Of a DNA stretch of 57,130 bases, positions 1 through 6,095 are shown in pieces. How positions within the stretch are numbered: position 1 is the stretch's first letter; each line of letters opens with the position of its first letter. The stretch is from Rhodoferax sp. (GTDB lineage: Bacteria > Pseudomonadota > Gammaproteobacteria > Burkholderiales > Burkholderiaceae_C), in NCBI RefSeq assembly GCF_025354435.1, contig NZ_JANXMU010000049.1:1-57130 (forward strand), in the 5' to 3' direction. Both the position numbers and the translations under genes were made by a program. Below the pieces are notes generated by a model that saw only the letters and a program-made list of their open reading frames with translations, did no database searches and was not told the origin of the DNA.

Positions 1-59
1 ACCTCCAGATAAAAAACGCAGCATAGCGCAGCCCAGGAATGGCCGCGCCCGGCAAAGCC

Positions 60-300
60 TGTGGATAGTTTTTGCATAAGCCACCAGTTATCCACAGCTT
101 GCGACAGATTCCCAAAGTTGTTCATTTGGACGGTACACCCCAGAAGCGCAGTCACACACACCCGTCAAAACAGGCTAAGTGCTTGGCCTGCAAGGCTTAA
201 AAGCACTTATCCACAGCGGAGGGGCATCCTTACTACTACTACTATTGAGTAATAGAAATATTAGAAGTATTAGAAGAAGAGATAACAAAACCGGGACCGG
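60..300 (+). other. oriC: Putative chromosomal origin of replication (oriC)
   Basis: Two exact DnaA boxes TTATCCACA lie at 88-96 and 207-215 on the plus strand, and a one-mismatch box (CTATCCACA) lies at 60-68 on the minus strand. The last plus-strand box is followed by a 14-nt GC-rich spacer (216-229), then TTACTACTACTACTATTG (230-247), a run of DnaA-trio repeats, then AT-rich DNA to about 290. Box, GC spacer, trio and unwinding element in this order form the bacterial basal origin-unwinding module. A 9-bp inverted repeat (176-184 with 201-209) abuts the last box. No dnaA, dnaN or rpmH is visible; they may lie left of base 1. A plasmid origin is possible but less likely, because no rep gene is seen. 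Confidence 0.78.
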
Positions 301-334: not shown

Positions 335-385
335 AAAAAAATAGCTACTCCCCTTGAGGAAATATGCGCTAACCCCGGTTTTATA
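335..385 (+). repeat. Dispersed intergenic hairpin repeat, copy 1
   Basis: Poly-A then ATAGCTACT on the left and ATGCGCTA further right match the family consensus (left arm TAGCTACTAGCG, loop near AGGTGGAAT, right arm CGCTAGAGG). The middle has diverged. The TAA stop of the minus-strand GGDEF/EAL gene (381-383) lies at the right edge of the element. Confidence 0.6.
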
Positions 386-3047
386 TAAATTCACCAATGT
401 GTCCACCATCCGGCCCGCCAACAAGCACCATGGCGTGTGACAGCTGGTCGGCGGGCAAGGGCCGCCCAAACAGATAACCCTGGTAGGCCAGGCAACCGTG
501 CAAAGCCAAGAAGTTGCGCTGGTCAGCAGTTTCCACACCCTCGGCAATCACATTCAGCCCCAGGCTTTGGCCCAGGCCAATGATGGTGCGCACGATGGCG
601 GCATCGTTGGGGTCGGTCATCACATCGCGCACAAACGACTGGTCGATCTTCAGCAGATCCAGGGGCAGGCGCTTCAGGTAGGCCAGCGATGAATAGCCCG
701 TGCCGAAGTCGTCCAGCGAAAAGCCTACGCCCTGGGCTTGCAAGGCTTCCATCTTGGCGATCACTTGCTCGATATCGTCCACCAGTAGGCTTTCGATCAG
801 CTCCAGCTTGAGCTGAGAGGGCCTGGCTCCGGTGGTGCGCAGAATTTCCAGCACCTGCTGCACAAAACCAGGGTGTTTGAACTGGCGGGAGCTGACATTC
901 ACCGCCATGGTCAGGTGCTGGGCGCTGGCGCGGCTTTGCCAGCTGGCAAGCAAGGTGCAGGCTTGCAGCAGCACCTGGCGGCCCAGTTCCAGGATCAGGC
1001 CAGTTTCTTCGGCCAGCGGAATAAAGGCAGCGGGCGACACCAGGCCGCGCACAGGGTGGTGCCAGCGTGCCAAGGCCTCCACACCGGTCAGCAGGCCTTG
1101 GGCATTGTGCTGGGTCTGGTAGTGCAGAAACAGCGCTCCCTGTGCCAGGGCCAGGCGCAAATCGGCCTCCAGTGTGGCTTTGTCGGTCACGGCGGCCTGC
1201 AGTTGCGGGTCGAAAAACCGCAGGGTATTGCGCCCGGCGGCTTTGGCCTGGTACATGGCGATATCGGCTTGCTTTAGCAATTCACCCACGGTATTTGGGC
1301 TGCTGCTGAACGGCGCAATACCGATGCTGGAAGTGCTTAGGTGTTCGTGCTGGTCCAACTGGTAGGGTTGGGCCAGGGTGGACAGGATTTTTTCGCCCAC
1401 CCGTTTGGCTTGTTCGGCTGCCGCGATCGGGTCGTGCCCTAGCTCTTCGAGCATGACCACAAATTCATCGCCGCCCAGGCGGGCCACGGTGTCCATGGTG
1501 CGCACGCAGTGGCCCAGGCGCAACGCCACTTGCTGTAGCAGCAGGTCGCCCTTGTCGTGGCCCAGGGTGTCGTTCAAGGTTTTGAAATTGTCCAGGTCGA
1601 TGAACAGCAGCGCCCCACCCTGGCCATGGCGTGCACTGGTGGCCAGCGCGTGGCCCAGACGGTCCAGCAGCAGCTGGCGGTTGGGTAGCAGGGTTAGCGT
1701 GTCGTAAAACGCCAGCTTTTCAATTTCGCGTTCGGTAGCCTTGCGCTGGGTGATGTCGCTGCTGATCGACAGGATGGAATGAGGCTGGTTATCGGTATCG
1801 GTGATCAGGGTCCAGCGGACTTCGGCTTCGATGCGCTGGTCGTCTTTGCGGTAAATGGCCAGTTCGCCGCGCCACTCACCCTTTTCCATCACGGCTTCGT
1901 AAGCGTGGGCCACGGCTGTGGGGTTTCGGTACACCTGGTGCAGCAAGGCGGAGCCCACGGCTTCTTGCGAGGTCCAGCCGTACAGCTGCTCTGCCCGTTT
2001 ATTCAGGTACAGCACGCGCTGGTCCAGACCGCGCACGACGATGGCATCCTGGGCCTGGTCCAGCACGGTGGCCTGCTGCCGGATACGGGCATCCGAAAGG
2101 CGCTTGTTTTCCTGGGCGCGCAAATGCTGGATGCCGAACGCAATGTCCTCTGCCAGTTGCAGCAGCAGGGGGATTTCATCAGAGGCGATATCCACCGTGG
2201 TGTTGGCATACAGATAGAACAGGCCCAGCGTACGTTCTGCGCTACTGTCGCTGCTGCGCAAGGGCAGGCTGGCTACACCGCGCAAATCATCTACCCAGGG
2301 CTCTTTCAGCCAGCTTTGGAAGATGGCTTCACGCCGGATGTCGGGCACCACCACCATTTCCCCCGAGCGGATGGCCCGCCCTGCCGGGCCCTGTCCATAG
2401 GGCGACTCCGACGACCAGGACATGGGCCAGACGGTGAAGTGCTCGGCAATGCTGCCGGCATGGGCCACGATCAAAATGTTTTTATCGGCATCGTCCTGCG
2501 CAAACCCGACCCAGGCCATGCGGTAGCCGCCGATATCCACGGCGATGCGGCAAATATCGTGCAACAGCGTGGATTCCGAGCTGGCCCGCACCAGGGCTTC
2601 GTTGCAGGTGGTCACCATGGAATGGGCCCGGCTCAAACGTGCCAGGTCTTTTTCGGTGCGCAGATGCTGGGTTACGTCATGTGCCAGCACCATGCGGGCC
2701 GCTTGGCCGTTGAACTGCAGGCGGTCGGTAGATATTTCTACATCAATGGCACTGCCGTCTTTTTTGACATGGCATCGGGGCAGCGCATGCAGGGGGTCTT
2801 CGGGCGGCAGGGCTTCTGCCTGCACGCCACCCAGGCCCATGCCCAGAAACTCGGCCCGCGAATACCCGTAGCGGCTGATGGCCGCCTGGTTGACCGCCAG
2901 GATGGCAAGGCCCTGCGGGTCGGTGACCCATATCGGCAACGGGTTGTTGTCGAAAAGTGTGCGGTACTGTTGTTCAGATGCCTGCAACTGGGCGTGGAGG
3001 GCGACCTGGGTGTCTGCGGGTAGCGTGTTCCGGGGGGTCTCTGCCAT
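381..3047 (-). CDS. PAS-GAF-PAS-GGDEF-EAL cyclic-di-GMP signalling protein
   Basis: An 888-residue, apparently cytoplasmic, bifunctional diguanylate cyclase/phosphodiesterase candidate; no membrane segment is seen. Rough order: coiled start and PAS (about 20-130), GAF (about 150-305), second PAS (about 325-440), GGDEF (about 455-620) and EAL (about 630-880). The cyclase motif GGDEF is intact, with an RxxD inhibitory site (RTMD) five residues before it. The phosphodiesterase motif EAL (in GVEALARW) and the metal-binding loop DDFGTGYSS are also intact, so both activities are possible. It lies 72 bp downstream of a close paralogue on the same strand (3120-6095); the GGDEF blocks are nearly identical, implying tandem duplication. 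The sensed ligand cannot be told from the sequence. Confidence 0.93.
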   Translation of the reverse strand: MAETPRNTLPADTQVALHAQLQASEQQYRTLFDNNPLPIWVTDPQGLAILAVNQAAISRYGYSRAEFLGMGLGGVQAEALPPEDPLHALPRCHVKKDGSAIDVEISTDRLQFNGQAARMVLAHDVTQHLRTEKDLARLSRAHSMVTTCNEALVRASSESTLLHDICRIAVDIGGYRMAWVGFAQDDADKNILIVAHAGSIAEHFTVWPMSWSSESPYGQGPAGRAIRSGEMVVVPDIRREAIFQSWLKEPWVDDLRGVASLPLRSSDSSAERTLGLFYLYANTTVDIASDEIPLLLQLAEDIAFGIQHLRAQENKRLSDARIRQQATVLDQAQDAIVVRGLDQRVLYLNKRAEQLYGWTSQEAVGSALLHQVYRNPTAVAHAYEAVMEKGEWRGELAIYRKDDQRIEAEVRWTLITDTDNQPHSILSISSDITQRKATEREIEKLAFYDTLTLLPNRQLLLDRLGHALATSARHGQGGALLFIDLDNFKTLNDTLGHDKGDLLLQQVALRLGHCVRTMDTVARLGGDEFVVMLEELGHDPIAAAEQAKRVGEKILSTLAQPYQLDQHEHLSTSSIGIAPFSSSPNTVGELLKQADIAMYQAKAAGRNTLRFFDPQLQAAVTDKATLEADLRLALAQGALFLHYQTQHNAQGLLTGVEALARWHHPVRGLVSPAAFIPLAEETGLILELGRQVLLQACTLLASWQSRASAQHLTMAVNVSSRQFKHPGFVQQVLEILRTTGARPSQLKLELIESLLVDDIEQVIAKMEALQAQGVGFSLDDFGTGYSSLAYLKRLPLDLLKIDQSFVRDVMTDPNDAAIVRTIIGLGQSLGLNVIAEGVETADQRNFLALHGCLAYQGYLFGRPLPADQLSHAMVLVGGPDGGHIGEFI

Positions 3048-3119: not shown

Positions 3120-6095
3120 TTACGGAATGCCCGGCAGGCCCATGGATTGCGCCAACTGGTCTGCGGGCAGTGGCCGGGCAAAGAAATAGCCTTGAAAGGC
3201 TTGGCAACCGTGCTGGGCCAGAAAGTCGCGCTGCTCGGCGGTTTCCACGCCTTCGGCGATCACGTTCAGCCCTAGGCTTTGGCCCAGGCCGATGATGGTG
3301 CGGGCAATCACTGCATCGTTGGGGTCGGTCATCACGTCGCACACAAACGACTGGTCGATCTTCAGCTGGTCCAGCGGTAGGCGCTTCAGGTACGACAGCG
3401 ACGAATAGCTGGTGCCAAAGTCGTTCAGTGAAAAGCCCACCCCCTGGGCTTGCAAGGCTTCCATCTTGGCAATCACCTGCGCGATGTCGTCTACCAGCAG
3501 GCTCTCAGTGAGCTCCAGCTTGAGCTGCCGCGGGTTGGCACCAGTCTCGGCCAGGGTGTCCATCACCTGCTGCACAAAGTCGGCATGCTTGAACTGGCGC
3601 GAGCTGACGTTGACCGCCATGGTCAGGTGCTGCGTGTCGACCCCCTGGCCCCAATCGGCCAGCAGGCTGCAGGCTTTGGCCAGCACCAGGCGACCCAGCT
3701 CCAGGATCAGGCCGGTTTCTTCGGCCAGCGGAATAAAGGCCGCTGGCGACACCAGACCGCGCTGCGGGTGCCGCCAGCGCACCAGGGCTTCCACGCCCGT
3801 CATGCCACCTTGGGCGTTGTGCTGCGACTGGTAATGCAGGAAGAATTCGTCTTGTGCCACGGCCTGGCGCAAATCGGCCTCCAGTGCTGCGCGGGCGGTC
3901 ACCTCGGCCTGCAACTGGGGGTCAAAAAAGCCCAGTGTGTTGCGCCCTGCCCCTTTGGCCTGGTACATGGCAATGTCGGCTTGCTTGAGCAGCTCGCCCA
4001 CGGTATCGGGCTGGTGGCTGAACGGCGCGATGCCGATGCTGGAGGTGCTTTGGTATTCGTGCCCGGCCAGCGTGTAGGGCATGCTCAGCGCGGCCAGGAT
4101 TTTTTCGCCGATGTGTTTGGCCTTGACCCCGGCGGCGCGCGGGTCGGGGCCCAGGTCTTCAAGCATCACCACAAACTCATCGCCGCCCAGGCGGGCCACG
4201 GTATCGGCGCTGCGCACGCAGGCCGCCAGGCGCAGAGCGACCTGTTGCAGCAGCAGGTCGCCCTTGTCGTGGCCCAGGGTGTCGTTCAGGGTTTTGAAAT
4301 TGTCCAGGTCGATGAACAGCAACGCTCCACCTTGGCCGTTGCGGGCGCTGGTGGCCAGCGCGTGGCCCAGGCGGTCCAGCAGTAACTGGCGGTTGGGCAG
4401 GTTGGTCAAAGGGTCGTAGAAGGCCAGCTTTTGCACTTCGCGCTCGGTGGCTTTGCGCTGGGTGATATCGGTGTTGACGGCCATGATGGAGTGCGGCTGG
4501 TCTTGCGCGTCGCGCACCAGCGTCCAGCGGGCCTCGATCACCATCTGGCTGCCGTCTTTGCGGTTCTGGGTAATTTCGCCATGCCATTCTCCCTGCTCCA
4601 GCACGCATTGCGATGCGGTCGCAAAGGCCTGCGGGCTGGCGGTGTAAATGTGCTCCACCATCGACCGGCCCAGCACTTCGATGGCCGTCCAGCCGTAAAG
4701 CCGTTCGGCGCTTTTGTTCCAGAACAGGATCCGGTGGTCGATGCTGCGCACCACGATGGCATCTTGCGCCTTGTCCAGCAGCGAAGCCTGGTGGTGGATC
4801 TGCGTATCGGCCAGGCGCTGGGCTTGCTGGGTGCGCAGGTGGTCGATACCAAAGGCAATGTCGTTGGCCAGCTGCTGCAGCAGCGGCAGCTCGTCCGCCC
4901 CGGCTTCCAGGGTTTCTGTAGCCGTGAGGCAGAACAGCCCGTAGGTGCCGCTGGCATTGCGCAGCGGCAGGCAGACAATGCTGAGCGGCGTGGCGGAGGG
5001 GTAGCGGGCCAGCCACAGCTGCAGGCTGGGGTCTTGCCGCATATCCGGCACCAGTACCACTTCGCCCGAACGCAGGCAGCGCCCGGACGGTCCTTGGCCA
5101 AAGCGCGATGTGGCGGACCAGGAGAACGGCCACTGCTTCATATCGGGGTCGATATCGCCCACACCGGCCACCAGCCGGATGGACTTCGCGTCGTCGTGCT
5201 CCGCAAAGCCTACCCAGGCGTTTTTATAGCCCCCAATCTCCACCGTGATGCGGCAGACCTCGTGCAGCAGCGCCGATTCGCTGCTGGCACGCACCAGGGC
5301 TTCGTTGCAGGCGCTGAGCATGCGCTGGGCGCGGCCCAGGCGGGCTAGACTGCGCTCGGCCCGCAACCGGGCGGTGATGTCGTTGACCATCACCATGCGG
5401 GCGGCCTGGCCGTTGAATTGCACGGTGCTGGTGGACATTTCCACGTCGATCACGCTGCCATCGGCACGCCGGTGGCGGCGGTGGCGGTGCAGCAGGCTGT
5501 GTGTGCTGTCGCCCAGCAGGGTGGCCTCGGTATCGGCATCCGTGGGGTTTTCGGCACAGTTGGTCGGGGTCAGAAATTCGGCCTGGCTGTAGCCGTAGTG
5601 CGCCACTGCCGCGGAGTTGACCGCCACGATGCGCTGGCTGTGCAGCTGCTGCACCCACATGGGCAGCGGGTTGCCTTCAAACAGGGCGCGGTACTGCTGC
5701 TCGGAGGCCTGCAATTGCAGCAGCAGCTGGATTTGCGTGGCCAGGCTGGTCAGCGCTGTGCGCTGGACGGCATCCAGCAAATGCGGCGGGTCTTGAGTCC
5801 ACATGACCCACAGCACCGCGATGCAGCCCGCGTCGGCGCTCCACACCGGCGTGGCGACGCACAGGCCCAGGCTGTCGCTGGGCAGAACTTGGGGTTCGGA
5901 CGTGGGGGCCAACTGCTCTGCCACATGTTGCAGTTGCGCTAGTGGCCATTCGCTGGGGCCCGTGTGTGCGACCAGGCTGTGTGTGCCCTGGTAGACCTGG
6001 GTCAGGCTGGCGCTGGCCGCGGCGCAGAGCTGGGCCGCCAGTTGCGCCAGTTGCTGGAACTGCCCGGCGCCCAGGGTCCCGGTGCTGGGCATCAA
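3120..6095 (-). CDS. GAF-like/PAS-GAF-PAS-GGDEF-EAL protein with degenerate EAL loop
   Basis: A 991-residue paralogue of the gene at 381-3047. It adds about 120 N-terminal residues that resemble a worn GAF domain, then repeats the same PAS, GAF, PAS, GGDEF, EAL order. GGDEF and the upstream RxxD (RSAD) are intact, so cyclase activity is likely. In the EAL domain the EAL triplet (GVEALVRW) is kept, but the loop-6 metal motif reads NDFGTSYSS instead of DDFGTGYSS. The first Asp is a metal ligand in active EAL enzymes, so phosphodiesterase activity is probably weak or lost; this is inferred. Its partner keeps the motif, so the pair may have split roles after duplication. Two adjacent ATGs make the start uncertain by one residue. 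Confidence 0.92.
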   Translation of the reverse strand: MMPSTGTLGAGQFQQLAQLAAQLCAAASASLTQVYQGTHSLVAHTGPSEWPLAQLQHVAEQLAPTSEPQVLPSDSLGLCVATPVWSADAGCIAVLWVMWTQDPPHLLDAVQRTALTSLATQIQLLLQLQASEQQYRALFEGNPLPMWVQQLHSQRIVAVNSAAVAHYGYSQAEFLTPTNCAENPTDADTEATLLGDSTHSLLHRHRRHRRADGSVIDVEMSTSTVQFNGQAARMVMVNDITARLRAERSLARLGRAQRMLSACNEALVRASSESALLHEVCRITVEIGGYKNAWVGFAEHDDAKSIRLVAGVGDIDPDMKQWPFSWSATSRFGQGPSGRCLRSGEVVLVPDMRQDPSLQLWLARYPSATPLSIVCLPLRNASGTYGLFCLTATETLEAGADELPLLQQLANDIAFGIDHLRTQQAQRLADTQIHHQASLLDKAQDAIVVRSIDHRILFWNKSAERLYGWTAIEVLGRSMVEHIYTASPQAFATASQCVLEQGEWHGEITQNRKDGSQMVIEARWTLVRDAQDQPHSIMAVNTDITQRKATEREVQKLAFYDPLTNLPNRQLLLDRLGHALATSARNGQGGALLFIDLDNFKTLNDTLGHDKGDLLLQQVALRLAACVRSADTVARLGGDEFVVMLEDLGPDPRAAGVKAKHIGEKILAALSMPYTLAGHEYQSTSSIGIAPFSHQPDTVGELLKQADIAMYQAKGAGRNTLGFFDPQLQAEVTARAALEADLRQAVAQDEFFLHYQSQHNAQGGMTGVEALVRWRHPQRGLVSPAAFIPLAEETGLILELGRLVLAKACSLLADWGQGVDTQHLTMAVNVSSRQFKHADFVQQVMDTLAETGANPRQLKLELTESLLVDDIAQVIAKMEALQAQGVGFSLNDFGTSYSSLSYLKRLPLDQLKIDQSFVCDVMTDPNDAVIARTIIGLGQSLGLNVIAEGVETAEQRDFLAQHGCQAFQGYFFARPLPADQLAQSMGLPGIP

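Follow-up and report, generated by a model that had tools for sequence, protein, structure and literature searches.

The basal unwinding system of the chromosomal replication origin (oriC) consists of a DnaA box, a spacer and an array of DnaA-trios, 13 nucleotides (nt) being the commonest spacer length given in the available part of Pelliciari et al. (2021, PMC8287927). Excerpts of Wolanski et al. (2015, PMC4285127) describe the origins of Bacillus subtilis and Helicobacter pylori as bipartite, extending up to ~2 kb, with the DNA unwinding element (DUE) in one part and usually split by dnaA. A few putative double origins have been listed, including that of Ralstonia pickettii 12D, functional proof being lacking (Gao 2015, PMC4403523). 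In natural single-chromosome Vibrio cholerae with both ori1 and ori2, the two origins are active together in one strain (excerpt of PMC6284228). Here we describe an oriC-type module at the start of a 57,130-nt stretch of DNA from Rhodoferax sp. (NCBI RefSeq assembly GCF_025354435.1, contig NZ_JANXMU010000049.1, positions 1 to 57,130), which we call the window, and its relation to a second copy of the same module.

We give a probability of roughly 70% to the following reading: the window starts in the chromosomal origin region of this betaproteobacterium, at one of two complete oriC modules (copy A), and the other module (copy B) is most likely the main origin, with copy A as a second origin or helper. 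Judged by its sequence, the module is real, recurring and duplicated, and replication likely starts in this region. The division of labour between the copies, with B most likely the main origin and A the second or helper, is the least certain part.

A complete oriC-type module at the start of the window

The first-pass annotation of this DNA had proposed an origin-type unwinding module made of DnaA boxes, a 14-nt spacer, trios and AT-rich DNA, and inspection of the window sequence found every one of these motifs where it had been placed (Table 1). Positions 60–282 run from DnaA boxes through a GC-rich spacer and DnaA-trios to AT-rich DNA, and the proposal of an origin-type unwinding module holds. 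A DnaA-type oriC is expected to hold an intergenic cluster of at least three DnaA boxes; here three (60–68, 88–96 and 207–215) lie between a glutaredoxin-like gene, on the adjoining contig C78, and a GGDEF/EAL gene. The elements of the basal unwinding system, namely a box, a spacer of at most ~16 nt (a limit taken from the available part of PMC8287927), several trios and AT-rich DNA, are present in both copies. The 14-nt spacing is found again on C78 and at intact sites of the relatives G002, G003, G004 and G007. It had been equated with the spacing in Escherichia coli, with which it agrees to within one base, but not exactly: there 13 nt precede the CTA, here 14 nt precede the first xTA trio (the E. 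coli 66-mer compared is found at 100% identity in E. coli records). At the position of the degenerate box-like element, the alignments show two loci (L138 and L142) with a sequence nearer to a DnaA box (TTATCCAGA), and the counterpart of box 3 is TTACCCACA in all six B copies.

Table 1. Features of the window at and around copy A
Feature	Position	Strand	Evidence
Exact 141-bp overlap	1..141	.	equals reverse complement of C78:1-141
oriC module, copy A, whole	50..290	+	profile (model R1) match C44:56-267, E=1.5e-38
DnaA box 1	60..68	-	TGTGGATAG on plus, CTATCCACA on minus strand; identical in 6/6 A copies compared
DnaA box 2 (TTATCCACA)	88..96	+	identical in 6/6 A and 6/6 B copies compared
Degenerate box-like element (TTGTTCATT)	118..126	+	alignments; putative DnaA binding
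DnaA box 3 (TTATCCACA), adjoining trios	207..215	+	identical in 6/6 A copies
GC-rich spacer, 14 nt	216..229	+	window sequence
DnaA-trio array (TTA CTA CTA CTA CTA TTG; TTACTACTACTACTATTG)	230..247	+	window sequence
AT-rich putative unwinding element	246..282	+	window sequence and copy comparison
PAS-GAF-GGDEF-EAL gene, unwinding side of copy A	381..3047	-	open reading frame and Pfam scan

A chance assembly of motifs can be rejected. The 4.66-Mb genome has a single instance of the pattern TTATCCACA-N10-20-TTACTACTACTA; the pattern is present in five of 40 genomes scanned, all of one genus, and the reversed control pattern gave no match on either strand in any of the 40. A looser scan (box with at most one mismatch, spacer of 10–17 nt, at least three xTA trios) returned one site in the window; 540 kb of distal DNA sampled from the relative G002 gave none. 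If the module works like the basal unwinding system, DnaA bound to the trio-side box would extend over the spacer onto the trio strand, melt the AT-rich DNA and let the helicase load. Copy A, as a second origin or helper, would also be able to be unwound.

An inverted pair of modules in Rhodoferax

The window opens at the first base of contig C44, in a draft genome of 89 contigs. A second full module, copy B, lies at C78:24172-24387 (+), inverted and ~24 kb to the left of base 1. We place C78 to the left because its reverse complement ends in the first 141 bases of the window; in G002, G003 and G007 the gene order to either side of copy A agrees with this, and the two contigs probably adjoin. 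The assembly break itself falls inside copy A. A search of the whole genome with the module gave matches on C44 and C78 only; contig C74, a rejected candidate with a DnaA box close to its left end, has no match to the module. The two copies form an inverted pair, with trios and AT-rich DNA pointing outward and boxes inward.

Window positions 50–300, used as query, matched all seven other genomes of the genus, the best match being 68–81% identical over part or all of the module. Both copy types are present in six genomes of the genus: in four they face outward 10–24 kb apart, among them G002 (98.5 and 119.0 kb), G007 (4615.2 and 4635.9 kb) and G003 (58.2 and 68.6 kb), and in the other two, G005 and G006, they lie on separate contigs. 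The looser scan for boxes and trios found two sites and no more in each of G002 (325 kb scanned), G007 (312 kb) and G003 (245 kb), and one site in 223 kb of G004. A divergent, probable third copy is seen in G005 (C212:3221-3255; L015, L029), on a contig of 3.65 kb from a metagenome bin in which A and B are present as well; it perhaps comes from another strain and was excluded from the hidden Markov model (HMM), the tree and the identity counts.

Different constraint on copies A and B

Comparison of the A-B pairs leaves out G001 and G004; the 48.9-kb copy of the latter is a candidate counterpart of A. A maximum-likelihood tree of modules places the six B copies in a clade of their own (bootstrap 84), to which no A copy belongs; the A copies group together with low support, one outgroup row falling among them. 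In each of the 15 genome pairs compared, the B orthologues resemble each other more than the A orthologues do. The elements that DnaA contacts are constrained in both copies: mean pairwise identity among A copies is 100% for boxes and 96% for trios (230–245), against 40% for the spacer and 37% downstream, and among B copies it is 96–100% for boxes and 100% for trios (230–245), against 70% for the spacer and 40% downstream. For the AT-rich element (246–282) mean identity is 0.67 in A and 0.79 in B. Fourfold-degenerate sites of genes near the modules in our genome are 79, 80 and 70% identical to those of G002, G007 and G003, respectively, and the corresponding values for the whole of copy A are 76, 74 and 69%, those for copy B 92, 90 and 76%. 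Outside its core, copy A changes at much the pace of fourfold sites; A is thus constrained at the DnaA contact elements only, and B more broadly. By these identities copy A is the less constrained of the two.

These results are also what one might see if B were the sole origin, with A a site that titrates or reactivates DnaA or a slowly decaying relic. The greater conservation of B in every genome pair and the near-fourfold pace of A outside its core favour this alternative, as does the second copy of G004 with its degraded trio. Regulatory sites of the datA/DARS type are made of DnaA boxes without an unwinding module. Copy A departs from that description: it keeps trios and AT-rich DNA, and titration of DnaA would not call for trios. 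Moreover, its three boxes are unchanged and its trios 96% identical in six genomes while spacer and flank drift. We give somewhat less than even odds to B acting alone.

Distribution of the module in the family

We built a sequence-only model from 33 aligned modules, which matches 147 of 150 genomes of the family and 112 of 115 genera. Two or three matches are found in 52 of the 150 genomes, trio presence having been inspected for part of the family matches only. The three matches of our own genome (G000) include one contig overlap, so that two real copies are counted, and in G020 and G160 the matches lie on different contigs. Among the matches listed, 33 genomes have at least two on one contig, with neighbouring copies at most 46 kb apart; 28 of them have their copies on the same strand, at 0.3–20 kb, and five on opposite strands. 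In two pairs, G132:C3 and G061:C55, the unwinding sides face each other (24.5 and 4.1 kb apart), the reverse of the arrangement in Rhodoferax.

A pattern scan of named genomes yielded 45 loci, 43 of them with titles of Burkholderiales or their genera; the other two belong to an Acidobacteriales bin (L143) and a Clostridia bin (L157). With the HMM, two or three module matches were seen at 27 of these loci, one match at 17 and none at one, in stretches of at most 8 kb and with some matches partial. Same-strand copies occur at loci titled Curvibacter, Simplicispira, Massilia, Duganella, Janthinobacterium and Rugamonas, and Caenimonas (L132) has one copy directly after dnaA.

Such recurrence raises the question of whether both copies fire, together or alternately, as a natural two-origin chromosome. 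The unwinding-module elements in both copies of the six genomes compared would suit this, as would the repeated matches, at most 46 kb apart where listed on one contig, across the family. The copies are, however, too close for skew to separate, the second copy of G004 has decayed, and only part of the family matches were inspected for trios; we regard joint or alternate firing as rather unlikely. The broader proposal, that the genus and many relatives in the family naturally have two or three complete DnaA-type origins within a single region and that more than one of these fires per cell cycle, against the rule of one oriC, is rather unlikely too.

A further possibility is that the two copies are one split origin joined by looping. 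The copies are close together with boxes facing inward here, and in 28 of the 33 family genomes with listed pairs they share one strand within 20 kb. Known bipartite origins, however, have two box clusters within ~2 kb, only one of them with a DUE (PMC4285127, excerpts); here both copies have trios and AT-rich DNA and they lie 10–46 kb apart. We therefore consider a split origin improbable.

Separation from dnaA and position of parS

The dnaA gene of this genome is at C52:43006-44409, on a contig of 93,449 bp that also carries rpmH and dnaN. Modules are on C44 and C78 only, and the module is thus separated from dnaA, as the first-pass annotation had suspected. A second cluster of boxes and trios beside dnaA, which would have spoken against this separation, is absent: the rpmH-dnaA gap has two perfect DnaA boxes and no trio, the dnaA-dnaN gap neither box nor trio, and the looser scan found no box-spacer-trio site in 19 kb around dnaA on C52. 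An origin module at dnaA was rejected on this count. Copy A is 86 kb from dnaA in G003, 98 kb in G002 and 158 kb in G007.

The separation had been thought exceptional, which proved not to be the case. Module positions are listed for 23 of 27 family genomes in which the two were compared; among the matches listed, the module is just after dnaA in seven (G072, G089, G098, G105, G133, G166 and G168) and 17–260 kb away in 15, while in the remaining one (G122) the placement relative to dnaA perhaps runs across contig ends. In some of the 23, such as G040 and G129, a second, unlisted match could lie nearer dnaA. Separation from dnaA is common in the family, and a method that predicts origins by looking beside dnaA would overlook the listed modules of 15 among the 23 genomes. 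In the seven genomes with the module right after dnaA, its position is as expected of an origin.

A DnaA-type oriC is also expected to have parS nearby. Using a parS motif, we found parS-like clusters 10–15 kb beyond copy B in all five genus assemblies checked (our own, where the distance is 14–15 kb, G002, G003, G004 and G007), a location on the B side that again favours B as the only origin. In the four assemblies with both on one contig, these clusters are 107–193 kb from dnaA. No parS cluster was found near dnaA in the fetched stretches, and no parS in the 540 kb of sampled distal G002 DNA; weaker single sites, each with two mismatches, are present in G002 (at 183 kb) and G003 (at 52 kb). 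In G082 two parS sites, the only ones in 40 stretches sampled, lie 22–28 kb from the modules and ~286 kb from dnaA.

Strand asymmetry and evidence against the proposed reading

We mapped GC skew, transcription-corrected skew at third codon positions (GC3) and FtsK-orienting polar sequences (KOPS) in G002, G003, G004, G007 and G082, with a resolution of ~100 kb. Corrected skew preferred A over dnaA by 3.7 log-likelihood (lnL) units in G003 and 3.3 in G002. In G082 raw GC skew preferred the modules over dnaA by 5.8 lnL, and corrected GC3 skew alone had no preference between them. The origin-proximal DNA of G007 holds an 83–88 kb block with dnaA (G007:C1, ~4452.8–4540.8 kb) that is inverted relative to G002; with this block left out, the best place is 4579 kb, with A at -2.1 and B at -4.9.

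Several observations weigh against the reading proposed above. Corrected skew prefers dnaA over A by 6.2 lnL in G007 and leans to dnaA by 0.5–2.2 lnL in G004. The best KOPS position in G002 is 38–65 kb; in G007 it falls on the dnaA side. For G082, the combined GC3 and KOPS fit is best at 180 kb (support 100–370 kb), a fit in which dnaA scores -1.2 and the modules score -8.4, and KOPS alone give -8.7 for the modules and -3.2 for dnaA, or -3.1 for both without one stretch. The pair of G004 is 46 kb apart (48.9 and 95.4 kb) with one trio decayed; G001, which is 73% complete, has one match; copy A is overall no more alike than fourfold sites; and since copies were located by similarity, decayed ones may escape.

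A DnaA-type oriC is expected to lie at a minimum of strand skew, and a GC-skew minimum at another place would have counted against the first-pass proposal; the fits are mixed on this point, some of them placing the origin nearer dnaA. Because results are mixed between genomes and measures, we do not claim skew as proof of an origin: it is weak and conflicting, it does not tell A from B, and it does not firmly tell either of them from dnaA. The skew in G007 and G004, the KOPS of G007 and the combined fit of G082 do lean to the dnaA side, as would be seen if replication started near dnaA and the modules were something else. Yet no trio module lies near our dnaA, nor in the fetched origin-proximal DNA of G002, G003, G004 and G007 beyond the copies described. 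The two perfect boxes at dnaA are all that is there, a number that would fit autoregulation; parS clusters are not near it in the fetched DNA; and in other genera of the family it is the module that sits at dnaA. A start near dnaA is therefore very improbable, and an origin region at copies A and B remains our preferred reading.

Neighbouring genes

Genes were called with a simple open reading frame picker and not with an annotation pipeline. On the inner side of A are rdgC (PF04381), an LTXXQ gene and the glutaredoxin-like gene, a marginal assignment; on the inner side of B is a DsbA-family gene, and mnmG lies ~12 kb beyond B, resembling the mnmG neighbourhood (gidA-mioC) of E. coli oriC in the available part of PMC10225481. 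Matches to our RdgC, a recombination-associated protein, occur at 13 of the 45 named loci (e.g., L049:1350-2309). The window has two adjacent and similar large open reading frames of PAS-GAF-GGDEF-EAL type, at 381–3047 and 3120–6095, the Pfam scan having covered the first only. In G003, G005 and G006, copy A is likewise followed by genes related to these, and no match to them was found in the fetched stretches of G002 and G007.

Comparison with known systems

Among literature titles and the starts of abstracts we found no account of oriC modules occurring as a pair in this family, a search whose coverage leaves out most subscription journals. The new part is the inverted pair, together with the two or three matches in 52 of the 150 family genomes sampled. 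Nature provides in this genus a means of testing whether a single bacterial chromosome can work with two origins. The recurring homologous oriC pair, present in the named strain Rhodoferax sp. OV413, and the tandem versions at Curvibacter, Simplicispira, Janthinobacterium and Duganella loci supply cases of several spacings and orientations.

The modules resemble the basal unwinding system, as the available part of PMC8287927 presents it, in the order of elements, in their CTA trios (3'-GAT-5' on the other strand) and in a spacer near 13 nt; they differ in that the spacer is 14 nt and that there are two complete copies per chromosome. With the split origins of B. subtilis and H. pylori, as excerpted from PMC4285127, they share two DnaA-box clusters in one origin region, but here the clusters are 10–46 kb apart, both copies have trios and AT-rich DNA, and dnaA is distant. 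Like the natural V. cholerae fusion strain, to go by the excerpt of PMC6284228, Rhodoferax would have two origins on one chromosome; those of V. cholerae are unlike each other, whereas both modules here are of the DnaA type. The cases of Gao (2015, PMC4403523) also have two predicted oriC on one bacterial chromosome, with the function of both unproven. Those are single representative strains, with origins beside different genes or derived from duplication of a whole locus, whereas the homologous copies described here recur through a genus and, as two or three matches per genome, through about a third of the sampled family.
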